This document shows positions 7,414-22,643 of a DNA stretch of 64,000 nt, one piece after another. The notes beneath the pieces are model-generated. The model was not told the DNA's origin. It saw nothing but the letters and a program-made list of their open reading frames with translations, and made no database searches. The first letter of the stretch is position 1. Every line of letters begins with the position of its first letter. Both the position numbers and the translations under genes were made by a program. Source of the stretch: Sphingobacterium sp. (GTDB lineage: Bacteria > Bacteroidota > Bacteroidia > Sphingobacteriales > Sphingobacteriaceae); the NCBI GenBank assembly GCA_022712315.1, contig JALAGS010000069.1, positions 46,511-110,510 on the forward strand, given 5' to 3'.

Positions 7414-8313
<900 letters not shown>

Positions 8314-8350: not shown

Positions 8351-10081
8351 TTAATTCATCGCTATAAACTTGAATTTGAACAATTGGCAAGAGGTACCGT
8401 AATAATCCCACAGCTGTAGGTTGGAATTTCCATCCATCGTACAGTTGGGTACATCCCATCCACGTGTGGCATCCACTTTCGACAGGATTTTGTAATAGCC
8501 ATTGGCTACTGCCAGCACCTGCCAGGCTTGTGCATCATTGTTGTAGTTCTGCCAAAGCCGGATGGAAGTGCCGAGGGTATTGCTGTTGCTGGCCAGGTCA
8601 ATGCAGCGATTACTTGCGCTAGCTTTGGAAACAAAACGCCAGTAGCCATTGCCGGCATCGATGGCAACCCAGCGTTGCGCATTTGCACCATTTCGGGTCC
8701 AGGGTCTGAGTACAGCGCCGTTGGCGTCTTCCCCTGATTTTAAATCAACGACTTTGTTGGCATCGGTCTGAAATTCGATTTCGTAAATACCGTTATTGAC
8801 GAGGCTGGTAACATTGCAATTTGAACTGGGATAATTGGAGGCGGCATATTGTTGAAACCATTGTTTACTAGGAGCAGCGCAGGCTTCCCAATCGTTATTG
8901 AAGGCAGTACCTGCATTGGGATCGCCTTTGTGAAGCAGGTCGTCAGGGGCGAGAAGGTTCCAACTCACATTGCCGGATTGATCGACGATATATTTTAAAT
9001 TGGCACCAAAACCATTGCCACCGGCAGTACCTGTGGAGCCTGTGCCAAAGGTGCCATATCCTTGCGGTGCCCAGTCGGTCTCGGTAATGGCGATTGGTGC
9101 AATGTCAGCAATAGGTTTAACATTGGTATTCCAGGCATTTTGAAAGGCCTGATAGGTATTAACGCCACCCCAATATCCGGGATAAATATGTACAGCGTAC
9201 CCGATGTTGCCACCTGTAATCTGATTACTGACATAGCCTTGGTAATGAGACTGCCAGCCAGTGCCGGGTATCCAGCATACATTGTTGGCACCGTTGTTAC
9301 GGATAATATTGACCAATGGCTGAAAGAAATTTTTAAGTGCAGCAAAATGTTCGTTTCCTGTTGTTCCCCAAGTGCCATTTGTGCCCAGGATTTCAACGGG
9401 TTCGTTGGCCAGCTCAAACATCACATTATCGGCGTTCTTCAGTGCAGGGTGCTGCGAAAGAAAAGTCCATACGGTTTTGAGATAAGTATGATAGGCATCA
9501 TTGACCGCAATACGGTGCGGACATACACCCGGAGGGCGCAAGATGACATACATACCCCGATTGCGGGCATGGTTGATCAACGGAATAATGACTTGGTCGG
9601 TATACGTAACCAAGCGATTGTAATTGAACCTTGAGATGTCATCTTCGGGAATAGGTGCACCAGGATCGTTGGTCCAATAAGGATCGATATGGAGACGAAT
9701 ATAATTGAGATACCAACCGTCGGCCGCACTGCTGAGTTTGTCAATGACGGCTTTGTTGTAATTGAGCGCTCCTTGTACATTGTAATTGTCCCAGGTGCAG
9801 TACCCCGAGTTGGCCCCATACTGACAGCCATTGAACCAGGGGCTTGGCGTAATGGCTACCCCATGCAGGACGATATTATTGTCGCAGGGATCCTTGAGGT
9901 ACTTTCCGCCTACATGCAGGGTCGGTGTCGACCGCGGCCAGCTTGTGACAGCTTGCGCGGAAACATTGGACTTCAGACTTCTTTCGGATTCGCTGGTCAA
10001 GGTTTTTTCTTCCAGCCGCGAACAGCTGGAAAGAATGGTTAATAAAAAGACCAGCAGTAACCACATTTTGTTTGTTCTCAT
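8351..10081 (-). CDS. GH5-family glycanase lipoprotein with C-terminal ricin-B lectin domain
   Basis: A 576-residue lipoprotein (LTILSSC, Cys20), likely on the cell surface. Residues about 50-415 form a GH5 (clan A) barrel: FELANEPV gives the acid/base Glu227 and AITETDW the nucleophile Glu334, with ILRPPG on strand 3. Residues about 428-576 are a ricin-type beta-trefoil (CBM13-like), marked by QxW-type strands AQRW and AQAW in two lobes and a degenerate CQLF in the third. The lectin part should tether the enzyme to polysaccharide. The position in the Xus-type operon, 30 bp after the GH10 gene, points to xylan or arabinoxylan, but GH5 also covers endoglucanases and mannanases and I cannot set the subfamily by eye. 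Confidence 0.87.
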   Translation of the reverse strand: MRTNKMWLLLVFLLTILSSCSRLEEKTLTSESERSLKSNVSAQAVTSWPRSTPTLHVGGKYLKDPCDNNIVLHGVAITPSPWFNGCQYGANSGYCTWDNYNVQGALNYNKAVIDKLSSAADGWYLNYIRLHIDPYWTNDPGAPIPEDDISRFNYNRLVTYTDQVIIPLINHARNRGMYVILRPPGVCPHRIAVNDAYHTYLKTVWTFLSQHPALKNADNVMFELANEPVEILGTNGTWGTTGNEHFAALKNFFQPLVNIIRNNGANNVCWIPGTGWQSHYQGYVSNQITGGNIGYAVHIYPGYWGGVNTYQAFQNAWNTNVKPIADIAPIAITETDWAPQGYGTFGTGSTGTAGGNGFGANLKYIVDQSGNVSWNLLAPDDLLHKGDPNAGTAFNNDWEACAAPSKQWFQQYAASNYPSSNCNVTSLVNNGIYEIEFQTDANKVVDLKSGEDANGAVLRPWTRNGANAQRWVAIDAGNGYWRFVSKASASNRCIDLASNSNTLGTSIRLWQNYNNDAQAWQVLAVANGYYKILSKVDATRGWDVPNCTMDGNSNLQLWDYYGTSCQLFKFKFIAMN

Positions 10082-10111: not shown

Positions 10112-11797
10112 TTATTTTTTAGCCTGCAATGCTTCAGCGACAGCCTGATATGCTGGCTTTCGAACGAATCCTTCGGTCCATAAACCGATCGGTTCTCCCC
10201 GCCGCCAGAATGAATTCTCTTGGTCAGGACTGTCTAATGGACTCCATATGGTAATACCATATTGTTTGTTTTTGGGAATGATCTCGAGATATTTCTCAAC
10301 GACAAATTTGTATAAGTCCGCTTGTTTCTGATACATTTCAGCTGTTGCATTTGTAGTTTTAATACCAGTACCAAGCCCGATATCTAATTCAGACACCTTG
10401 ATGAACTTGCCGGTGGCTGCCAGCAGCGTAAACATATTGACGATGTTGTCTTTGTTTGTATTGATATCGATGTGCATCTGCGTGCCGATACCATCAACCT
10501 TGGCGCCTTTGCTTTCGATGTAGCTGACATAGGCGATCAGTCCTTTACATTTGTTGCCGCTGCCTTCCAAACCGTAGTCATTGATGAATAGGAGATCATT
10601 GGTATTGCCATATTTGCGGGCGAATTGAAAGGCTTTTACCGCATAATCTTTTCCAAGATAATCCTGCCAGTAGAATTCGTCATCAGCCAGATCGGTTTTT
10701 CCGATTCCGGTCTTCAAGGCATATTGGTCTGGCCAGTCGGACATCGGCTCGTTGACCACATCCCAGGCCTTGATATACCCTTTGGTTTTCTCCAACATGC
10801 CGGCAATAAATGTCTCCAGTGCTTTTGTGAGTATGGCTTCTTTCTCGGCAGGTGTTTTCTCGATCGTGCTACCTCCCGGGCTGCCATACCCTTCACCATT
10901 GGCGGACTGTGCTCTGGAGGAGTTATTTCCCCAGCCAAACCAACCATCGATATTGTTTTCAAAATCACTGTTGGCGATAAGATTAGTCGAACTGCCTGTT
11001 TTTGTCAGCACAACCTTGTCGATGAAAATAGTGCCATCATATTGACCAAAATTGATAATAAAACGGTTGCGTGCAGCAGTTGCGGTGACTTTAAGTTCGT
11101 ATTCTTTGTAGCTTGTTGTTAATGCCAATGAGCCCATATTGTCACCGGTATAATTGGAAGTGCTTTGCAGATCAATACCAATATTGCCTGTTTTGCTACC
11201 ACGGGCCACAATCTTCAAGACATACTCTTTACCCACTTCCGTAGGGGTAATGTCATAGGCTGTCTGTGCTTCCCAGGCATTGACAACAGAAGGATTGCTC
11301 ATTTTTAATGCATGTCCAGCTAGCGCTGGTCCGCCCGAACCCGGTAGAACCACAGGGGCGATCAACTTATTGAGATAGGCAGCGTTTTGTCCCGAATGCC
11401 AGCATAAGGTGTGACCATAAAGCGTCATATTGTTTTCCTGCGCAGCGGTGATCAGCTGTTCCACGCGTGATAGATTAAGGCTTCCGTCGGCCTGCACAAT
11501 GGAGCCATGCTTCATTTCATAGCCTATCACCATTTCTTCAAAATTGCGGTTGGCCAGACGGTAGAGGACTCCCTTGTTAAAATAATCGTTCATATTGAGG
11601 GCTACACCAAGCTTAAATGCCGGACTTGCCTGTTTATCTAAATAACTTTTCAGGGGATTGTAGGCGTTTATATCTTCCTGCGCCAGCACTTTTTCCGGTT
11701 TATCGACGGCAAATCCCAATGGTTCATATTTGGTACAGGAACTCCAGACGGTGCTGAGCGAAAGTAGGATGACGATAGTTTTATTGATTTTTTTCAT
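10112..11797 (-). CDS. GH10 endo-1,4-beta-xylanase lipoprotein with CBM4-like insertion
   Basis: Surface endo-xylanase of 561 residues. The lipobox VWSSC puts the lipid on Cys21. The GH10 barrel is split: GHTLCWHSGQ (strand 3) is at 128-137 and the helix before strand 4 resumes near 315. Catalytic residues are present, acid/base Glu350 in WDVVNEP and nucleophile Glu470 in KVSELDIG. The insertion of about 165 residues looks like one CBM4/9 module, but with its parts in permuted order (see findings). Interrupted GH10 xylanases of this kind are known next to XusE in Prevotella bryantii and gut Bacteroides, where they are the main surface xylanase. The gene follows the XusE-like gene by 23 bp and precedes GH5 by 30 bp. 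Confidence 0.93.
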   Translation of the reverse strand: MKKINKTIVILLSLSTVWSSCTKYEPLGFAVDKPEKVLAQEDINAYNPLKSYLDKQASPAFKLGVALNMNDYFNKGVLYRLANRNFEEMVIGYEMKHGSIVQADGSLNLSRVEQLITAAQENNMTLYGHTLCWHSGQNAAYLNKLIAPVVLPGSGGPALAGHALKMSNPSVVNAWEAQTAYDITPTEVGKEYVLKIVARGSKTGNIGIDLQSTSNYTGDNMGSLALTTSYKEYELKVTATAARNRFIINFGQYDGTIFIDKVVLTKTGSSTNLIANSDFENNIDGWFGWGNNSSRAQSANGEGYGSPGGSTIEKTPAEKEAILTKALETFIAGMLEKTKGYIKAWDVVNEPMSDWPDQYALKTGIGKTDLADDEFYWQDYLGKDYAVKAFQFARKYGNTNDLLFINDYGLEGSGNKCKGLIAYVSYIESKGAKVDGIGTQMHIDINTNKDNIVNMFTLLAATGKFIKVSELDIGLGTGIKTTNATAEMYQKQADLYKFVVEKYLEIIPKNKQYGITIWSPLDSPDQENSFWRRGEPIGLWTEGFVRKPAYQAVAEALQAKK

Positions 11798-11820: not shown

Positions 11821-12849
11821 CTACTTTTTGATGGGGGTAAAAGTTTCCATTTTTACGGACCTGTCCCGCATCACGAGGGTATCCTTGCTTGTGATGCTCA
11901 TCTGTGGCATTTCAATCGCATAGGAAAGATAAAGTGCGTCTCTATCCGTATTGCCCCAGCTGTTTTTTTCGCCCCGTTTGACAAACTTTCCTGTTCCTGT
12001 AGCAGATATGCCGGCAGTTGCCGAGCTGATGTGACAGGTATTGTCCTCATCAAAAGTTAAGTTGAGGTTGACATTAATATTGACGTCATCAGTCCCTTTA
12101 AAAGACAGCGGTAATACCGATTTCTTTAGCGCTGCTGTCGTGATGTTTTTGACTTCGTCTTTTTCGACATAAGCCTGATGTCTGACCATATTTTTAGTCA
12201 AGCTGCTGTTGACACCTTTGCCGACAATCTGGTCGGTGCCCCGACGTAGGTAATTGCCGTGCCAAGGGTTTATATATTTGAGGGCGTAGAAAATAAAATC
12301 TTTTGGTGCAACATCCCAATCGGATACAATAGCCCTATTGGCATTCTGTAGGGAAGTTTTGCCGGATAGGATGGAATCGGCGTTGACGACTTTTGACATG
12401 CGTAAGGGCAGTACGTAGTAGGTCTCCAATGCTTTGGGATCGGCAAAAAATGCGTCGGTCAGCTGTACCTCGACACCGCCTGTTAGGCTTCCACTTGGAA
12501 TAGTGATCTGGTTGCTGGCCAGTTGATAGTAGTTGGTCGGCAAGGGCGTGACCGGTTGTCCACCTGGGTAGCTGAGTCCGTTTGTGAGGCTATTGTCGAC
12601 CACAAAATCGATGCGGATGTCTTTGCTGTTGTTGTACACCCCACCTGTGGTTGCCATGACTTTGACCTTATGCTGGTTGTCGAGGCTGTTGTCAATGATG
12701 TCTTCGCCCAGAGTTACCGTTCTGACAGGTGTCTGATAGGCGAAGTATACCGATTGAAATTCGAAGTCTGGGAATTCCCAGTCGTTATTTTTGCAAGACG
12801 CCAGGCTTACTAATGCCATCGCGTAAAGGAGATTGATTTTTTTCATCAT
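11821..12849 (-). CDS. xusE: XusE-like surface lipoprotein (DUF1735/DUF5627 type)
   Basis: A 342-residue lipoprotein thought to bind xylan oligosaccharides on the cell surface beside the two SusC/SusD pairs. The track starts it at 12963, but that adds 38 residues that overlap the upstream SusD gene and hide the signal. Starting at 12849 gives MMKKINLLYAMALVSLASC, a good lipoprotein signal with Cys19, 13 bp after the SusD stop. The mature part holds a DUF1735-like beta-sandwich (residues about 30-165) and a C-terminal beta domain with INPWHGNYLRRG, a pattern of DUF5627 proteins. Position between xusD and the interrupted GH10 matches xusE of the Prevotella bryantii xylan cluster. No enzyme motif is visible. 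The symbol rests on synteny. Confidence 0.75.
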   Translation of the reverse strand: MMKKINLLYAMALVSLASCKNNDWEFPDFEFQSVYFAYQTPVRTVTLGEDIIDNSLDNQHKVKVMATTGGVYNNSKDIRIDFVVDNSLTNGLSYPGGQPVTPLPTNYYQLASNQITIPSGSLTGGVEVQLTDAFFADPKALETYYVLPLRMSKVVNADSILSGKTSLQNANRAIVSDWDVAPKDFIFYALKYINPWHGNYLRRGTDQIVGKGVNSSLTKNMVRHQAYVEKDEVKNITTAALKKSVLPLSFKGTDDVNINVNLNLTFDEDNTCHISSATAGISATGTGKFVKRGEKNSWGNTDRDALYLSYAIEMPQMSITSKDTLVMRDRSVKMETFTPIKK

Positions 12850-12862
12850 GTGCGTATTAATG

Positions 12863-14626
12863 TTAATTCCATCCCGTATTCTGTACAAGGTTGCTATATT
12901 TAAGTACTTCACTGTACGGGATCGGACCATAGTACATATAGGTTTCGTAAAGTCTATTTTCAACCGGGATTTCCGTGTAGCTGTTGTTACTTATGCTGAT
13001 TCCTTTTGCAGCAACATTGATATCCATCTTCCAGCGGCGGAGGTCCCAAAACCGAAATCCTTCAAAGCAGAGCTCCAGTCGGCGTTCGTTGCGGATGAGC
13101 TGCCGCATTTGATCTTTATTGTTTTTTACTTGCTCCAGGTAAGGATCGCCATTGTTGGTGCCGACACCGGCACGTCTGCGAATAGCTTTGATGATATCGT
13201 AAGCAGAGAACGTAAAGGTCCCCATGCCTGTAGGTCCCCAGGCTTCATTAGCTGCCTCGGCATAAGCCAGATACATTTCTGTCATCCGTAGGCGGACATT
13301 GAAATGCATTTGTTGGGTCGGGGATGATGGATTTAGATTAACGTCCTGACGTAGGAGCTTTTTGAGGTAATAGCCCGTTCGTGTAGATGTTTCGACCTTA
13401 TTTAGCCCATCGTTGGTTGGACTGTTGGCAGTGGTATTGATCGCTGTGCTGCTGACACCTGCAGTTGCTCCATTGACAATAATATAAGTCTTCAATCTAG
13501 GATCCCGCTTATCATAAGGATTGGCTTTATTGTAGGCCGAATTGGCATCTCCAATCGGATATCCATTTTCCATGGGGAAGGCATCAACCAGGTTTTGCGT
13601 GGGATTGAGTCTTCCTTTTCCAAATAATGTTGGTGGAAAATGGTCCTGTTCCATGCTATTGCTATTTCCTTTGTCGGTACGCCAAAGGATTTCGGCGGGG
13701 TTTGATCCGGAGGTTAAACCGTCGACTACATCTTTATTGTACCAGGTAAATCCTTTAGGATCGATGCCACTGGGGCCGCCTTTGGCTTGGATGACTTGTC
13801 CGGCATAGGTGGCCGCTTGCTCCCAAGTCGTTTTGCTGCCTTCACTGTATGCTGGACTTGCAGCCAATAATGCCGCTCTGGCGCGGATCGCCTGTGCGAT
13901 GCGTTTGGTCATCCGGAGTTTGAAATAAGATCCGAATACGCGATTGTAATCGTCCTTATTGATCGTTCCTGCATATTTGGCCGGGATCTGACTATCGGCG
14001 CTGATGTCTTCATAATCCATCGGCAACAGGTCTTCTGCTTTTTTGATGTCATCGTAGAGCTGTTGCATGCAGGTTTCAAATGGTGCCCGTGTATGGTTAA
14101 AGTCCGAATTGATGGTTTCGGGAGTCAGAAGGATGGGGACACCCATGATTTCCCCGGTACTTGATTTCCCAGCATGTGCCTGCAGCAGGTGAAACATAAA
14201 TAGGGCACGAAGGCCATAAGCTTCACCTTTCATCCGGTCGTTGAATAGGACGCTGACCTTTGGATCCAGCGCCCATTCCACCTTATCGCTCAGGGATAAA
14301 AAGTTGTTGAGGTATTGCAAAGCTGCGTAACTGTTGCGCCATTGGTCGAAAGGGTTGTTTATGCTTGTCCATTGCCCCGTGGCTGTTTTAAGATAGGTGT
14401 TGCTTTTATCGTTGCTTACTGCATTGTCGGTGGCAACATCATCGAAGCTATAACTATTGCCCGGAACGCGGTTGTACCCGTTTAGGAGCAATCCTTGGGC
14501 ATACAGGGGACGGCTGTTGGCCGTTTCAATTTCAAGATTATTCTCTAGAGCCGGCTCAAACATATCTTCACAGGAGGAAAATAGTAAGCTACTTAGGATG
14601 GCTATGGTTAGTATTCTTTTCATCAT
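12863..14626 (-). CDS. xusD: RagB/SusD-family lipoprotein (second pair, XusD-like)
   Basis: SusD-like lid protein of the second transporter, 587 residues. The signal ends LLFSSC with Cys19 lipidated. The N-terminal helical region has RALFMFHLLQAHAG, and the C-terminus carries the conserved RNERRLELCFEGFRFWDLRRW block that ends SusD proteins. It follows its SusC by 21 bp and is followed 13 bp later by the XusE-like gene, so the order SusC-SusD-SusC-SusD-XusE-GH10 is complete. By analogy with Xus systems the ligand should be xylo-oligosaccharide or decorated xylan fragments. The name is assigned from gene order and family, not from a sequence search. Confidence 0.9.
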   Translation of the reverse strand: MMKRILTIAILSSLLFSSCEDMFEPALENNLEIETANSRPLYAQGLLLNGYNRVPGNSYSFDDVATDNAVSNDKSNTYLKTATGQWTSINNPFDQWRNSYAALQYLNNFLSLSDKVEWALDPKVSVLFNDRMKGEAYGLRALFMFHLLQAHAGKSSTGEIMGVPILLTPETINSDFNHTRAPFETCMQQLYDDIKKAEDLLPMDYEDISADSQIPAKYAGTINKDDYNRVFGSYFKLRMTKRIAQAIRARAALLAASPAYSEGSKTTWEQAATYAGQVIQAKGGPSGIDPKGFTWYNKDVVDGLTSGSNPAEILWRTDKGNSNSMEQDHFPPTLFGKGRLNPTQNLVDAFPMENGYPIGDANSAYNKANPYDKRDPRLKTYIIVNGATAGVSSTAINTTANSPTNDGLNKVETSTRTGYYLKKLLRQDVNLNPSSPTQQMHFNVRLRMTEMYLAYAEAANEAWGPTGMGTFTFSAYDIIKAIRRRAGVGTNNGDPYLEQVKNNKDQMRQLIRNERRLELCFEGFRFWDLRRWKMDINVAAKGISISNNSYTEIPVENRLYETYMYYGPIPYSEVLKYSNLVQNTGWN

Positions 14627-14647
14627 TCTCGGTTTAAATATTTATGA

Positions 14648-17527
14648 TTAAAATAGTGCCTTGAGGCCGATGTTGAAAAAACGCATCTGCGGTGCCTGGC
14701 TAATATTGAGCTGCATTGTTTCCTTTTCCTTTGCGATCGTTAAAAGATTGGATCCCATAGCATAAATTCCCAGCTCGTGGATAAATTTGGAATTGAATAG
14801 ACGCTTTGGGAAATCGTAAGAAAGCTGTACTTTGGACAGGTTGATGCGATCGGTTTTATAAAGCCAGAAGTCTGAGCTTCGGAAATTGTTGTCACTGTTG
14901 AACGTCGTAAGACGTGGGTAGGTAGCGGTTTCTTTGGTCGATTCCGTCCAACGATCACGCACTACTGCCGAATATTTGTCTTCCCCGTCGACCCAAAAGT
15001 ATGCGCTATTTTTGATGGCTTTGGCTCCGAACTGTCCAGTGGCAGCAGCAAATAGCGTAAAATTGTTCCATTTAACCGTCAGGTTGCAACCTAGGGTCAG
15101 TGGGGCACCAGCCCATCCAGCTTTACCTAAATAAACTTCGTCGCGCGTATCAATAGTACCATCGCCGTTTTGGTCTTTATACTTGATGTCTCCGGGTTTT
15201 ACCTCTCCGAATGAGGAAAATGCTGCATTGTCTATGTCGGCCTGACTATTATAAAACCCATCGTTTTGTAGTCCCCATATGGCATCCAAAGGCTTTCCAG
15301 CCCGGTTTTGATAGGCGAATTGGTATAATTCGTCACGTTGCACGGCCTTTGTCGAGTAATACATCCCATTGAAACCCAGTGATACAAAAGTTTGGTTTAT
15401 TTGTTTGTTCAGATTGATGCCAAAGTCGACCCCGCGGCGTTCGTCACTGTTGTAATTGATGTAGGGAAGATCCGAGTAAACCGGCCAATAAGTCATAAAA
15501 TACATCGGATACTGTGTTGCCGCCTGCACAAGGCCACCGCTCATCCGATTAAAAAAGTAAGAAGTATTGAAGGTGATTAAATTGTCGTAAAGTCCGCCCT
15601 CAAGGTTGACGTTAAATTCCTTGCGCTTAGGAAACTTCATGTTAGGATTGTCTCCGCGACGTCTATCAAAAGTATGGACGAGGTCGCCATCGCGCCAGCT
15701 ATACCAGGCAGCATCGTTGTAGGTGTAGTATCCCTGATAAAGATAATAATCGGAGATGTCCAGGTCGGTGTTTAAGATACCTGCAGAGGCGGACAATTTT
15801 AACTCATTGACAACTTTGCTGTTGGCGAGAAAATTTTCTTTTGACAGGCGCCAGGCAAGTGCTAACGTTGGTGAGAGAGCCTGACGGTTTCCTTGGGGCA
15901 ATTTGGCCGAATGACTATAAGCGCTACTAAAGTCAACATAATATTTACTCGAATAGTTGTAGCCTAGTTGAAGTCCGAGGTTGGCATTGCTGATTTTGTG
16001 GTAGCTTCCAGAGGCAGCGATCTGAAACGCATTGGCCAATAGGATCGCCGAAACATGATGTTTATTGTCGTAGGTACGGTTAAAGTTTAGGGATCCATTG
16101 AGGCCGATGGTCTGCCTATAGGTGCTGCCACTGATATTTTGTATGCCGGATATACGGTCATCACCATATTTTGTCAGGCTACTTATGAGGTCCTTTCCGT
16201 CGTAGTTGTTCCACGAAGCCTGATAAACTGCATAATTGTTGTTATAGGATTGATTGTAATTTGACTGATAATCCACCGCGAGATTGGTTTTGAAAACGAG
16301 GCCTTCGAGGATATTTTTTAAGTCAAAATTCAAGCCGGTATTAAATTGAAACTGCCGGTTAAGATAGCGGTTTGTACCTCCGGCATAGACATTGGCAAAA
16401 GCATTGGTCTGGTCCAGCTGACTTCCGCCCAGCAGGTATTTGCCATCAATGAGAAAATTACTGTTGTTGACATAGACCATGGAGTTGACATCGTTCTCTT
16501 CGATCATATCAATAGGGATGAGGGGGGAGAAGCGATGTGGCCGTCCGGTGGCCGCCGCACCCCAATAGTCCGTATTCACCCCTTTGGAAATATAAAAACT
16601 GGCGGCAGCATCTACATTCAGGGAGATCAGATCATTGACTTTAACATCAATGTTGCCGCGCATATTAAATCTATTGGCGCCTCCGTTTTTTTTCGCCTGA
16701 CCAAAATTGAGCAGGGAGCCTTCCGACCAAAACCCAAAGTTGGTATAGTATTGCGCGCGCTGATTGCCACCGGAAATTTCTGCGGTTGCATCGTAACGGT
16801 TGTAATGATCTTTGATGTAGTCTGAGGCGTAGTAATCGACATTGGGATAACGATAAGGATTTGTTCCGGCGGCATGCTGGTAGATAGTTTCGGCACTATA
16901 AAGTGTAGAGAGACCATCATTCTGCCGGGCCTCGTTATAGAGTGTCATATATTCTGCTGAACCCAGGTATTTTGGATAACTGATTGCTGCATTGATACCA
17001 CTATTAGCTCTAATTTTAATTTGCTGATCACCAGCTTTTCCACGTTTTGTGCTTATGCTGATGACGCCTTTGGCTGCCCGGCTACCATAAAGGGCGATGG
17101 CATTGGCTCCTTTTAGCACACTGATCTGATCGATTTCTGTTGGCATAACGTTATTGGCGTCGCGCGGAAATCCATCCACTAAAACCAGATAACCGCTCAT
17201 CCCCCAAATATTGCCATTATAACCAGCAATAAAGGCGTCTAGATTCTCCAGACTGTAGGTGTTGTAACTCTTGTCGAGTACCTGTGGGATGTTGATGGAT
17301 TGAACATTGCCCATCAGGTCTTTTTTCGGAACTTTCCGGAAAGCAACCTGTACAAGTGCTGTACTGTCTATGCCGGTACTATCCGGACGAGCGGCTGTTG
17401 AAAATGCCGGGAATCTATTTTTATACTGTCTAATGGTTGGATTAAAGACTTCTTTGGCCATCCCATCGGTGACCGCTATGCAGTTTAATCCAAGACATAG
17501 TGCTATGCTTAATTTTTTGTACTTCAT
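14648..17527 (-). CDS. xusC: SusC-family TonB-linked transporter lacking the N-terminal beta-sandwich (XusC-like)
   Basis: Outer-membrane import channel of 959 residues. After a signal peptide (cleavage near residue 24) there is no carboxypeptidase-regulatory-like domain, which the first SusC has at 45-115. Instead a short linker runs to a plug at about 80-165, with LVLVDGFPRD, ISVLKGANAIALYGSRAAKG and ISTKRG as conserved plug motifs. The barrel follows and ends with the aromatic strand MRFFNIGLKALF. The plug is well conserved, so the protein is not a decayed copy. It lies 27 bp after SusD-1 and 21 bp before SusD-2. The ligand is probably a xylan oligosaccharide, perhaps differing in size or decoration from that of the first pair. 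Confidence 0.9.
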   Translation of the reverse strand: MKYKKLSIALCLGLNCIAVTDGMAKEVFNPTIRQYKNRFPAFSTAARPDSTGIDSTALVQVAFRKVPKKDLMGNVQSINIPQVLDKSYNTYSLENLDAFIAGYNGNIWGMSGYLVLVDGFPRDANNVMPTEIDQISVLKGANAIALYGSRAAKGVISISTKRGKAGDQQIKIRANSGINAAISYPKYLGSAEYMTLYNEARQNDGLSTLYSAETIYQHAAGTNPYRYPNVDYYASDYIKDHYNRYDATAEISGGNQRAQYYTNFGFWSEGSLLNFGQAKKNGGANRFNMRGNIDVKVNDLISLNVDAAASFYISKGVNTDYWGAAATGRPHRFSPLIPIDMIEENDVNSMVYVNNSNFLIDGKYLLGGSQLDQTNAFANVYAGGTNRYLNRQFQFNTGLNFDLKNILEGLVFKTNLAVDYQSNYNQSYNNNYAVYQASWNNYDGKDLISSLTKYGDDRISGIQNISGSTYRQTIGLNGSLNFNRTYDNKHHVSAILLANAFQIAASGSYHKISNANLGLQLGYNYSSKYYVDFSSAYSHSAKLPQGNRQALSPTLALAWRLSKENFLANSKVVNELKLSASAGILNTDLDISDYYLYQGYYTYNDAAWYSWRDGDLVHTFDRRRGDNPNMKFPKRKEFNVNLEGGLYDNLITFNTSYFFNRMSGGLVQAATQYPMYFMTYWPVYSDLPYINYNSDERRGVDFGINLNKQINQTFVSLGFNGMYYSTKAVQRDELYQFAYQNRAGKPLDAIWGLQNDGFYNSQADIDNAAFSSFGEVKPGDIKYKDQNGDGTIDTRDEVYLGKAGWAGAPLTLGCNLTVKWNNFTLFAAATGQFGAKAIKNSAYFWVDGEDKYSAVVRDRWTESTKETATYPRLTTFNSDNNFRSSDFWLYKTDRINLSKVQLSYDFPKRLFNSKFIHELGIYAMGSNLLTIAKEKETMQLNISQAPQMRFFNIGLKALF

Positions 17528-17554
17528 TTTTTGAATGATTAAATGAAAAACTTG

Positions 17555-19450
17555 TTACCAGCCTGGGTTCTGATAGAACTCGGGATACATGTTGACATCT
17601 CTTACCTTTAGGGGCAACCAGTAATGCTTGCTTGTAAACTTGCGCTCCAAAAGCACATTTTCTTTGATGTTGACAATGCGGTTTTGGGATGGGTCTACGG
17701 TATTAAAGGTTCCTGCCCGATCAAATGAAACCGATTTTTTTAAGGTGTAAGGAGATTCGGTCAATAACAGCCAGCGTCGAAGATCATTAAAGCGATGGCC
17801 TTCAAAGGCGAGTTCCACTGCACGCTCTCTCCGTAGCTCGGGCAATAGTGCAGTTGCTGAACTTAGAAATTTAGCATCTACATGGCCTACTCCGGCGCGA
17901 TCCCGAACGACGTTGATCGCGTCTACAGCTGTTTTGTTATAATTGTCTGCTTTGCCTGTGGCGGAGTTGGAAGCCATCATCGCTGACTCGGCATACATCA
18001 GATAAACATCAGATAGGCGCATGTAAGGCACATAAATATGAAGATTGGAACCATAATTATAGGCTTGATCATATTTGTTTGCTGTTATAGGGACAAATTT
18101 GCGTAACACATAACCTGTCTGGCTGCCAGACTGTATATCTCGGTAGCTTCCATTGCTGTAGAGGTTAGCGTAACGGTTTTTTTCATCCTGCGTATTTCCC
18201 TGAACGACTTTTGTTCCATCAAAGATGATATCCTTATAAAAACGTGGATCCCGGTCTTTCCATGGGTATTCGGCATTGTAGCCTGACTCGGCATCGGACT
18301 GGGTGATGTCTTTGATCGGTAAACCGTTTTTCATACCATAGTAGTCCACATAATTTGCTGTTGGGATAAACTTCAGTGCATCCCCATCGGATACGACCAG
18401 TGGGATATATTGTTTACTGGTTCCAAAATTTGATACCCATGCATCAATATAAGGGCCCCTGAATATTGCTTCGGTACTGCCCGGCATGGCCCAGTTTTGT
18501 CCTGTGGTGTAAAAATTTAAATGAATATTGGCCATTGGAACAAGGGCGTAATTCGTTTGCCCGCTTTCGACGAGGGAAAGCAGTTCGCCAAAGGCTTGGG
18601 CTGCCTTTTTGCAATACTCCGTATGGTAAGCTTTAGTTCCTGTCGACTGAAAATTCATCAACGGACTTCCCGCCCAGAGGTAGTTTTTGCCGAGATAGGC
18701 CAGCGCCATAATTTTATTGATGCGCAGCTGGTTTTTTCCTAAAGTCCGTTTTCCGGCGGTGGTATTGTCCCAATCAATCGGTAAGAGATTGGCTGCTTCT
18801 CTAAAATCGGCCGCAGCAAGATCCGCACAGGCATGGTAACTCAGTCTTGGCAACCGAAGCTTTTCGTCGCTGGGAAGTACATAATTGATATAGGGCATTC
18901 CGCCAAAATATTCCATCAGGCGGTGGTGAAACCAGCCTCGGAAAAATAACAATTGCCCCTTGATCAGATTTTTCTCTTCCTGTGTAGCTTCGGTCAATTT
19001 GTCAATATTCTCTAGTCCGAGACTTACTTTTCTCAGACCAAACCAGGCTGCACTCCATAGATCGCGAAAAGCGCGGTTGGCAAAGACATCCCCGTTTGCT
19101 GTGGTAAAATCACCTTGATCCATCCAGCCGGAGCCCCAGCCGTCGGATTCTCTTTGCCAGCCCCAGAAATTGCCGTTATCGATTTTGTGGACGAAATGAT
19201 AATTGCCAGCCGTTGAGGTCATTTCATCTTCGCCCCAGTTCCAAGAGTTCGTCCAGTAGTTATTACTAAAGTTGACAACACAGCTGTAGAGCTCTTCCGT
19301 ATATCCCTGGAAGTTAATAAAGTTTTTAAATGCTTCTTTGGAGGACACATTGGACTGCTCTTCTTTGTCTAAATATTTTTTACACGAGAGTAGGGAAGAG
19401 GAAGACCAGATCACACCAGCTATAAAGATTACCTTGAAATACTTTTTCAT
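17555..19450 (-). CDS. xusB: RagB/SusD-family lipoprotein (first pair, XusB-like)
   Basis: SusD-like xylan-oligosaccharide-binding lipoprotein, 631 residues from the chosen start. The track begins at 19480 inside the upstream SusC gene. The ATG at 19448-19450 gives MKKYFKVIFIAG and a lipobox SLLSC (Cys23), 10 bp after the SusC stop, and is clearly better. Many Trp and Tyr residues occur in the first third (YWTNSWNWGEDE, NFWGWQRE), as expected for a sugar-stacking surface. The conserved SusD C-terminus reads RRERAVELAFEGHRFNDLRRW. It forms the lid of the first SusC. The xus name is by synteny. Confidence 0.91.
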   Translation of the reverse strand: MKKYFKVIFIAGVIWSSSSLLSCKKYLDKEEQSNVSSKEAFKNFINFQGYTEELYSCVVNFSNNYWTNSWNWGEDEMTSTAGNYHFVHKIDNGNFWGWQRESDGWGSGWMDQGDFTTANGDVFANRAFRDLWSAAWFGLRKVSLGLENIDKLTEATQEEKNLIKGQLLFFRGWFHHRLMEYFGGMPYINYVLPSDEKLRLPRLSYHACADLAAADFREAANLLPIDWDNTTAGKRTLGKNQLRINKIMALAYLGKNYLWAGSPLMNFQSTGTKAYHTEYCKKAAQAFGELLSLVESGQTNYALVPMANIHLNFYTTGQNWAMPGSTEAIFRGPYIDAWVSNFGTSKQYIPLVVSDGDALKFIPTANYVDYYGMKNGLPIKDITQSDAESGYNAEYPWKDRDPRFYKDIIFDGTKVVQGNTQDEKNRYANLYSNGSYRDIQSGSQTGYVLRKFVPITANKYDQAYNYGSNLHIYVPYMRLSDVYLMYAESAMMASNSATGKADNYNKTAVDAINVVRDRAGVGHVDAKFLSSATALLPELRRERAVELAFEGHRFNDLRRWLLLTESPYTLKKSVSFDRAGTFNTVDPSQNRIVNIKENVLLERKFTSKHYWLPLKVRDVNMYPEFYQNPGW

Positions 19451-19460
19451 ATGGGTAGGG

Positions 19461-22400
19461 TTAAAATGTAATGTTTGCACCTAGATTAAACCGCTTTACA
19501 GTAGGGTAGGCTCCCTGTGAAGCCCAGCCTGTACCGGCGTAATTGGATTCACGGTCATCCGGCATTTTGGACCAGAAAACTAAGTTGTTTCCATTGAGGA
19601 ATACGCGAAGATTTTGAAGGCCCATGCGTTTGATGATGCTGGATTCCCGGTTAAAATTGTAAGCAATTTCGGCTGTTTTCAGGCGGATGTATGAACCATC
19701 AAACATATATCGACTACCGGGTGTATACGTGCTCGATTGCGATAGCCAGCGAGGCAGTGGCACATCGGCATTGACATTGTCTTTTGACCAATAGGAACCT
19801 TCGTCGTAAGCCAGGTTTAACTGGCCAGAAAAGCTGTTGAAAACAACCTGACGGGTGACATTATTGACGGCATACCATTGTGTCATGATACTAAAATTCT
19901 TCCAGTCGAACCCAATCGTACAATTGTATGTGTTTTGTGGAACCGAAGGAAAGGCGTAAGGGATATTATCCTTAGCATCGATAATACCGTCCCCGTTATA
20001 ATCGAGTATATGATAATTGCCGGGTAGTTTGGCTAGATCATTACTTTCGTGCGCAGTACTCGAATAAAGTTCGTCCCAGGTATTATAGTAGCCTGCACTG
20101 ACGTACGAGTAAGTCTGATTGACCTGTTTATTGTCTGGTTTTTGGTACTCGGGGAGCAATTCGGGAGCATCGGCATTGATGACTTTATCCTTGGCGTGGG
20201 TAAAGTTGATATCGGCCCATATTCTCGAGTCGATATTGAGCTTTCTGTTGAATTTTAGCTCAACCTCAAATCCTTTGTTTTGAACTTTGCCGAGGTTGGC
20301 TGTTGGTGCCTCCATCCCAAAATAGGAAGGGATGGCTCTATTGGCGCCGCTGATGAGAACATCTGTCCGCCGGTCCCTAAAAAAGTCGACCTTACCGCTT
20401 ATCTGGCTATTGAATAGACCGAAATCGAGTCCGACATTGAATTTGTTGACTTTTTCCCAACGGATATTTGGATTACCGAGCGCACTTTCCTTGTACCAGA
20501 CATAGGGGCTGGTATTGCCGTCGGAATAGGAGAATCGCCCCTCAACGCCCATGCCGGCGGTGCCGCCATAAGCCCATTGGGTTAGATATAGAAATTGCCG
20601 CCCACCACTATCGTCACCGATGTCACCGTAAGAAGCACGGAGCTTAAGCATATTCAAAAATGAAACCGGCTTCATAAACTCTTCTTCACTGACTAACCAG
20701 CCTAGACCTCCTGAGTTGAAAAAGGCAAATCTGTTATCAGGACCGAATTTCTCTGATCCTGTATAGGCGCCATTATACTCGAGCATATACTTGTTTTTGT
20801 AATTATAGGTTGTCCGGAATACCCAGTCCTCACGATAGGAGGGGATCATACTTCCTGTACCGGTTTGATTGCGGTTGAAAAGTCCCATGGCAGTAATGTT
20901 GTGGTCTTTGCCAAGGGTGGTCGCGTAGTTTAATTGCAATTGATAGAAGAGTCTTCTGTAGGTGGACCAATCCCTGACTTGTCCGGCGCCGGTTGTCCAG
21001 TTTATACCTTCGACAAAATCAAATCTGTTGGTGCCATCGAATGCAATCTGGTAGGTTGGCAGTCCGGTATTGGGATCTATCCATTTACTTTGTGTGCTAT
21101 TGTTGGCGTCATTGATACCCCGGCCACCTTCGACAAAGGTATTATCCAGTGAGATCGTTCCGCGAACGTTGAGGCCCTTCGCTAAAAACTTGAGATCTTG
21201 CTCAAGTGTAAAATCCGTCGTAATACGGCTTGTGGTTACATATTCAGTACCGCTGATCGCCAGCACGCGGGCAGAGTTTATTCCTGCTTGCGTGTTTAAC
21301 GCATAGTAGCCCCATGTTCCATCTGCGTAACGTGGATAGATAACGTCAGGAGCTACGGTATAGGCCGCGATCCAATACGAATAATCGTTGCCACCGCCCC
21401 ATGGGCTTTTTTTGACACCGCGGGATCCTGCCAGGTTGGTGGAGAATTTAGTTGTGGGGGTGAGCTGGAAATCCAGATTGGAACGTACATTCAGACGGTT
21501 AAATCCGTAACCGGCTTTGTATCCGCGTGCATTTTCGAATTGACGGAACATATCGCCTTCGTAAAGAAAATCTGCATTGGCAAAATACTTGACAAAGGGT
21601 GTACCACCGGCAATATTGACGCTGCTATTTTGTGAAAAGGCTTGGCTCTTAAATAATTCTTTTGCCCAGTCCGTATTTACATAGCGTTCGCGTTCTGTCT
21701 GGTCAGCAGGAAAACGGTATTTGTTGATGATATCCTGTGGAAGATAGTTGGCCCAGCTGGCAGGTGAGATGCCTAATTCATTTTCGATAACCTTGTTGCG
21801 TAACATTAGGGCATCGTATGAATCCATTTTACCGGGAAGCTGCGAAACAGTTTTGATGATATTGTTGACAGTACCACGTATCAGCATATGCCCTTCCATA
21901 CCCCGCTTGGTGGTGATTAAGATTACACCATTGGCTCCTCTTACGCCATAAACAGCAGTTGCTGATGCGTCTTTGAGTACTGAGATGGTTTCAATGGAAC
22001 TGATATCAACGGCAGATAGCGGCCTTTCCACACCATCAACCATGACTAAAGGATCGGTATTATTCCAGGTACTGCGTCCGCGGATTACAATACGGGGATC
22101 TTCTTCACCGGGCATTCCGGTACTTGCTGTGGTTATCACTCCCGGCACGTTGCCCGTCAGCGCAGCCCCTACACTCGAAACACCTCCAGCACGCTCTAAA
22201 ACTTTGCCTGAAGTCTGGGCGATGGCTCCAACGACGGTTTCTTTTTTCTGACGGCCATAACCGACAACAATTGTTTCTTCGATTTCAATTGATTTGTCGA
22301 TTAGCTGTATCTCTACGGTATTCTTATTGTTGATGTCGACTTCAACTTGTCCATACCCGAGCTTGGAAATGGTCAATAAGTTTTTATCCGCAGGTACTTG

Positions 22401-22643
22401 AAGGGTGAAATTGCCGTTGTCGTCACTAGCTGTAGCCAATGAAGTACCCTTTATCTTAATGGACGCGCCAGCGATCTTTTTATGGTTGCTATCGACTACA
22501 ATACCTCTTACCTGTCTTTTGGTCTGAGCATGTAGTGTGGACTGTCCCATATAGATTAGGAACAGCAGTAAAGTAAATGGCTTAGCTATACCCCATAGCT
22601 TTTTCCAATGCCTTACTAGTGTGATTGTAAATGTAATCATCAT
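19461..22643 (-). CDS. xusA: SusC/RagA TonB-linked outer-membrane transporter (first pair, XusA-like)
   Basis: Full-length SusC of 1060 residues and first gene of the minus-strand xylan operon. Order of parts: signal (hydrophobic 21-33, TLHAQ cleavage near 40), carboxypeptidase-regulatory-like beta-sandwich at about 44-115 (VRGIVVDSNHKKIAGASIKI), the IEETIVVGYGRQKK TonB-interaction segment near 121-134, plug to about 255 (VMVDGVERPLSAVD, ISVLKDASATAVYGVRGANG), then the barrel, ending FNLGANITF. With SusD-1 it should import xylan oligosaccharides using TonB energy. The ATG at 22643 is the only plausible start. A promoter-like element with a 21-bp-spaced direct repeat lies about 250-320 bp upstream, leaving a long leader. 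Confidence 0.94.
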   Translation of the reverse strand: MMITFTITLVRHWKKLWGIAKPFTLLLFLIYMGQSTLHAQTKRQVRGIVVDSNHKKIAGASIKIKGTSLATASDDNGNFTLQVPADKNLLTISKLGYGQVEVDINNKNTVEIQLIDKSIEIEETIVVGYGRQKKETVVGAIAQTSGKVLERAGGVSSVGAALTGNVPGVITTASTGMPGEEDPRIVIRGRSTWNNTDPLVMVDGVERPLSAVDISSIETISVLKDASATAVYGVRGANGVILITTKRGMEGHMLIRGTVNNIIKTVSQLPGKMDSYDALMLRNKVIENELGISPASWANYLPQDIINKYRFPADQTERERYVNTDWAKELFKSQAFSQNSSVNIAGGTPFVKYFANADFLYEGDMFRQFENARGYKAGYGFNRLNVRSNLDFQLTPTTKFSTNLAGSRGVKKSPWGGGNDYSYWIAAYTVAPDVIYPRYADGTWGYYALNTQAGINSARVLAISGTEYVTTSRITTDFTLEQDLKFLAKGLNVRGTISLDNTFVEGGRGINDANNSTQSKWIDPNTGLPTYQIAFDGTNRFDFVEGINWTTGAGQVRDWSTYRRLFYQLQLNYATTLGKDHNITAMGLFNRNQTGTGSMIPSYREDWVFRTTYNYKNKYMLEYNGAYTGSEKFGPDNRFAFFNSGGLGWLVSEEEFMKPVSFLNMLKLRASYGDIGDDSGGRQFLYLTQWAYGGTAGMGVEGRFSYSDGNTSPYVWYKESALGNPNIRWEKVNKFNVGLDFGLFNSQISGKVDFFRDRRTDVLISGANRAIPSYFGMEAPTANLGKVQNKGFEVELKFNRKLNIDSRIWADINFTHAKDKVINADAPELLPEYQKPDNKQVNQTYSYVSAGYYNTWDELYSSTAHESNDLAKLPGNYHILDYNGDGIIDAKDNIPYAFPSVPQNTYNCTIGFDWKNFSIMTQWYAVNNVTRQVVFNSFSGQLNLAYDEGSYWSKDNVNADVPLPRWLSQSSTYTPGSRYMFDGSYIRLKTAEIAYNFNRESSIIKRMGLQNLRVFLNGNNLVFWSKMPDDRESNYAGTGWASQGAYPTVKRFNLGANITF

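Follow-up and report, generated by a model that had tools for sequence, protein, structure and literature searches.

A predicted circularly permuted CBM4-like module inside the barrel of a Xyn10C-like GH10 xylanase of Sphingobacterium

The window, the whole 64,000-nucleotide stretch of Sphingobacterium sp. DNA analyzed here, encodes a GH10 enzyme whose barrel is interrupted by an insert. Our predicted structure and its match to a crystal structure make it highly probable that this insert folds as one autonomous, circularly permuted CBM4-like xylan-binding module of a surface Xyn10C-like GH10 endoxylanase. Profile matches support a circular permutant of one CBM4-like domain, with the C-terminal part (C-part) placed ahead of the N-terminal part (N-part). 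The permuted order is not peculiar to this xylanase and is common in Bacteroidota GH10 enzymes.

The xylanase locus and the order of parts in the insert

The GH10 family profile (PF00331, Pfam) covered the 561-aa protein in two stretches (1.4e-56). Motif GHTLCWH, barrel strand 3 (residues 128–134), lies directly N-terminal of the insert, and helix 3 and strand 4 (TPAEKEAIL..., WDVVNE at residues 345–350) are C-terminal of it; the preliminary description had located the insertion between barrel strands 3 and 4. The roles given to E350 and E470 in Table 1 are predicted from sequence motifs and from what is typical of GH10 enzymes. The protein thus has both predicted catalytic glutamates and a CBM between strand 3 and helix 3, the marks of a Xyn10C-like GH10, and its gene is downstream of the SusCD pairs, as in Xyn10C-like GH10s of xylan utilization loci. 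The gene order of the locus agrees with the xus order of Xyn10C loci (PMC7848910), and a hybrid two-component regulator is also encoded. Next to the xylanase, window positions 8351–10081 encode a GH5 enzyme whose C-terminus carries ricin-type lectin domains, and a separate SASA esterase is present in the locus at 7414–8265.

A profile of the canonical inserted CBMs of relatives gave two matches in the insert, and their order was reversed: positions 35–145 of the profile fell at insert residues 24–132 (115 bits), followed by positions 1–48 at insert residues 138–184 (48 bits). No extra first half was left over in the insert before the C-part, and no extra second half after the N-part. Along the xylanase the segments run ALKMSNPSVVNAWEAQ (residues 163–178), GTIFIDKVVLTKTG (residues 255–268) and NLIANSDFENNIDGWFGWG (residues 272–290); the coordinates first proposed for them were correct to within one residue. 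The reversed order that the preliminary description had claimed from this insert was shared by 31 of the 93 Sphingobacterium genomes and by other families, which excludes both chance and an assembly fault. An assembly artefact was ruled out by this recurrence in many independent genomes.

The CBM_4_9 family profile (PF02018, cut-off 25.9 bits) gave two partial stretches and scored 25.3 bits on the whole protein and 30.7 bits on the insert alone; both the profile matches and the structural comparison place the insert outside the canonical strand order of that family. Because profile annotation sees two weak fragments, a xylan-binding module common among soil and gut Bacteroidota is probably annotated too seldom or in separate pieces.

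Table 1. Positions in the window of the xylanase gene, its predicted parts and neighboring genes
Feature	Position in the window	Strand	Basis or remark
Xyn10C-like GH10 endoxylanase gene, permuted CBM inside the barrel	10112..11797	-	ORF, 561 aa
GH10 barrel, first part (residues ~50–134), up to strand 3 motif GHTLCWH	11396..11650	-	
Linker from barrel strand 3 to CBM (residues 135–156)	11330..11395	-	low pLDDT and profile matches
CBM C-part, last three quarters of the CBM4-like sandwich, placed first (residues ~157–265)	11003..11329	-	
WEAQ motif (W175, Q178), predicted ligand contacts	11264..11275	-	W and Q invariant in 31 permuted units
Y216, nearly invariant in the permuted alignment	11150..11152	-	
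Closing loop from old C-terminus to old N-terminus, six residues (~266–271)	10985..11002	-	
CBM N-part (NLIANSDFE...), first quarter of the sandwich, placed last (residues 272–305)	10883..10984	-	
GH10 barrel, second part, from helix 3 (residues ~315–558)	10124..10855	-	
E350, predicted acid/base (WDVVNEP)	10748..10750	-	sequence motif
E470, predicted nucleophile (KVSELDIG)	10388..10390	-	sequence motif
BT_3987-like N-terminal domain and DUF5627 protein, XusE position	11821..12963	-	
Two SusC/SusD pairs, xus order	19461-22643, 17555-19480, 14648-17527, 12863-14626 (overall 12863..22643)	-	

Predicted fold and structural match

AlphaFold2 was run on residues 140–320, the insert alone without the barrel, with an alignment of 31 rows (30 relatives). 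It returned one compact beta domain over residues ~157–305 (pTM 0.78). Across model residues 21–160 (of 181), pLDDT reached 89–97 in blocks and was mostly >90, and it fell to <50 in model residues 1–17 on the linker side. The top structural match of the model, whose fold AlphaFold2 may have learned from this very entry, was 4MGQ, the CBM of Prevotella bryantii Xyn10C (VIA, Z 19.1, 146 of 159 residues, sequential, model residues 17..166). Foldseek also placed 4MGQ first. The ordinary CBM4 structures 4QPW, 4MGS, 1GU3 and 1GUI scored Z 11–12 and were aligned over model residues 20..128 only. Sequence comparison agreed: 4MGQ matched in both parts, the C-part and then NLIANGTFEENADGW, in the same order as the insert (E 7.3e-12), and 4MGS and 4QPW matched in the C-part only.

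This agreement between structure and sequence on the order of parts shows that the permuted topology is real and is already present in the PDB. The preliminary description had proposed structure prediction as a check on its reading, and in the model the insert did close into one sandwich domain, which supports closure of the two parts into a single fold. The 4MGQ entry is ligand-free; it has been available from the PDB since 2014 and is probably described in a paper of that year. Host enzyme type and permuted order are shared between 4MGQ and the insert; their identity is 25%, and they belong to separate permuted sub-lineages. Our literature search, outside which the 2014 primary paper of 4MGQ fell, found no description of permutation in this xylanase family. 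The permuted topology is known structurally through 4MGQ and may already have been described as a permutation.

Distribution and history of the permuted unit

Among the 31 Sphingobacterium genomes, 21 carry the permuted unit as the sole CBM (frames of 563–581 aa), and in the other 10 a canonical CBM precedes it (720–736 aa). Named relatives with permuted units come from assemblies of Sphingobacterium, Parapedobacter, Niabella, Desertivirga, Paradesertivirga, Petrimonas, Paludibacter and Bacteroides, and permuted units overall are scattered over Bacteroidales, Sphingobacteriales and Chitinophagales. In Bacteroidota GH10 enzymes the unit occurs alone, after a canonical CBM, before one, or in tandem with another permuted unit. 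In genomes of the order or family of L059 and G805, the permuted-then-canonical order was seen in L196 and L197 and the permuted tandem in L198. Of 395 Bacteroidota genomes scanned, only that of the window showed a clear pair of C-part-then-N-part matches, and a scan of 393 genomes from the order of L059 revealed the other contexts of the unit. SASA esterases with an N-terminal permuted unit (L153 in G805, L176, L177 and L178) are kept in several genomes, and this free-standing context shows C-part plus N-part to be a portable and complete module. A search of plasmids for the insert gave no match.

Trees were built on the C-part alone, so that the sequence needed no rearranging. In the resulting tree (119 columns, many forks poorly supported) canonical and permuted units were intermixed, and well-supported branches forced at least four changes of the permuted label. 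The AU test rejected one clade of all permuted units (p-AU 0.0056); it did not reject one when the FETD-type units L161, L162 and L164, a group classed partly by hand from spacing and moderate N-part similarity (shuffle z ~3–5), were omitted (p-AU 0.076). A single origin for every permuted unit was therefore discarded, except with the FETD-type units left out. The barrel tree likewise showed frequent switches among single, double, canonical and permuted architectures.

These data suggest that (i) one and the same loop was probably the site of the swap, or of its reversal, on more than one occasion; and (ii) permuted units would have been born in tandem-CBM ancestors, probably more than once. 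The broader claim, that same-loop permutation was repeated (or reversed) across CBM4-like lineages on Bacteroidota GH10s with the aid of short-linker tandem CBMs, stands in our judgment at an even balance. If it is true, these loci would offer a ready-made series of architectures (canonical, canonical-permuted, permuted-canonical, permuted-permuted and permuted alone) in which domain permutation can be followed as it evolves.

Alternatively, the permuted order could be the ancestral topology of a PbXyn10C-type CBM subfamily, with the nearby canonical units derived and nothing moved in this lineage. The order of 4MGQ and the spread of permuted units over three orders are in keeping with such an ancestry. 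The intermixing in the C-part tree, the rejection of one clade and the other CBM4 structures found, which align without the N-part and are thus of canonical order, speak against it and make it doubtful. The preliminary description had allowed that the same order might prove to be the usual one in a described family; this turned out to be partly so, since the order has been crystallized in 4MGQ and is common in Bacteroidota GH10s.

Half-loss from two tandem CBMs was the route that the preliminary description had favored, and it may explain the older permuted unit. As a direct origin of the single-permuted form, by loss of the first N-part and last C-part of a canonical tandem [NC][NC], it is distinctly improbable. 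Canonical tandems do occur in related enzymes, and the short linker of one of them, L148 (G819:C904), with only four residues between its CBMs, could permit such pairing; L148 is a possible pre-permutation stage. The nearest long relatives, in Sphingobacterium and Parapedobacter, however, are canonical plus permuted. The Parapedobacter genes L018 and L041, with flanks 99.0% and 99.6% identical at the DNA level, differ by one complete in-frame canonical CBM of 459 bp. The long homologues, together with this near-clean case, make it more probable that the short form in this genome is a canonical-plus-permuted gene which lost the canonical CBM ahead of the permuted one, although the tree from which loss versus gain in Sphingobacterium is read is not rooted. 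Canonical and permuted forms at one insertion site in close relatives provide a rare test set for the duplication-and-loss model. The same data set suits the question of whether permutation re-aims the binding module relative to the catalytic barrel.

The C-part might instead pair with the N-part of another molecule or module, by domain swap or nested pairing, and not with its neighbor six residues away. A low-confidence AlphaFold2 model of the C-N-C-N insert of L059 matched 4MGQ over residues 8..316, with the outer halves seemingly paired. The pTM of that model is 0.47, however, and its repeats are near-identical, so that the pairing is ambiguous. Moreover, the single form has no second N-part to offer, and 4MGQ, which shares the order, consists of a single chain. 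C-N-C-N tandem inserts were found in L052, L057, L059, L062 and L198, and the C-to-N linker was six residues in all four tandems examined, which suggests that neighboring halves pair. The same length was present in 39 of 40 permuted units, and canonical tandems mostly have 10–14 residues there, with two exceptions; this near-fixed length argues that the linker is an intra-domain loop. Taken together, pairing with a distant N-part is very unlikely.

The dN/dS ratios among ten Sphingobacterium short forms, which are only rough because dS is close to saturation, were 0.049 for the C-part, 0.056 for the N-part and 0.036–0.041 for the barrel. The permuted unit evolves under purifying selection, with like constraint on both parts, and a decaying relic was ruled out by these values. 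That the insert consists of two truncated CBM halves, unrelated or without function, as deletion leftovers of a tandem-CBM ancestor, fits the partial PF02018 stretches around the cut-off and is otherwise barely credible in the face of the confident single-domain model, the end-to-end crystal-structure match (which together excluded two unrelated half-domains), the same order in 31 Sphingobacterium genomes, dN/dS of ~0.05 on both parts and the near-fixed loop. The proposal of one complete permuted domain, made in the preliminary description, was instead upheld by the model, the 4MGQ match, the loop, the similar constraint on both parts and the free-standing unit of the esterases.

Predicted xylan binding and related systems

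In the GH10 Pm25, the inserted CBM4s bind xylan and increase product release from wheat bran about 2-fold, and mutants of CBM4-1 show that Y213 and Q216 of its YDAQ motif matter (PMC7848910). By motif, W175 and Q178 of WEAQ would be equivalent to these two residues, and Y216 is the probable counterpart of Pm25 Y257 (PMC7848910). Xylan binding by the insert is likely, and the cleft with W175, Q178 and Y216 would bind the ligand. In the proposed arrangement the new termini would lie in the old loop between strands 2 and 3, now plugged into the loop between barrel strand 3 and helix 3, and the six-residue loop would join the old N- and C-termini. Since the C-part holds all three residues, the binding face would be kept, and the swap would mainly alter the place and orientation of the tether of the module to the barrel. 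The module would hold the enzyme on insoluble xylan, as demonstrated for the inserted CBM4s of Pm25.

Pm25 is Xyn10C-like and SusCD-linked, and its CBM4 insertion, like the one here, falls between strand 3 and helix 3; in contrast to the single permuted unit of this xylanase, it carries two tandem CBM4s that were aligned with canonical ones, and permutation is not mentioned (PMC7848910). CBM1 of Bacteroides intestinalis BiXyn10A (4MGS, 4QPW) also lies inside a GH10 of a xylan utilization locus and has a homologous C-part, although its order is canonical. A precedent for natural permutation between families of carbohydrate-binding modules is CBM36 and CBM60; unlike the CBM4-like insert, these are calcium-dependent. 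A natural circular permutation is named in the title of Montanier 2010, as cited in PMC4725902.

One GH10-like protein (L154, G601:C28:21507-22040) has kept a permuted CBM and has lost both catalytic glutamate motifs, which read WVVISDP and KLMDVRID. From its sequence, it is possibly a surface binding pseudo-enzyme.
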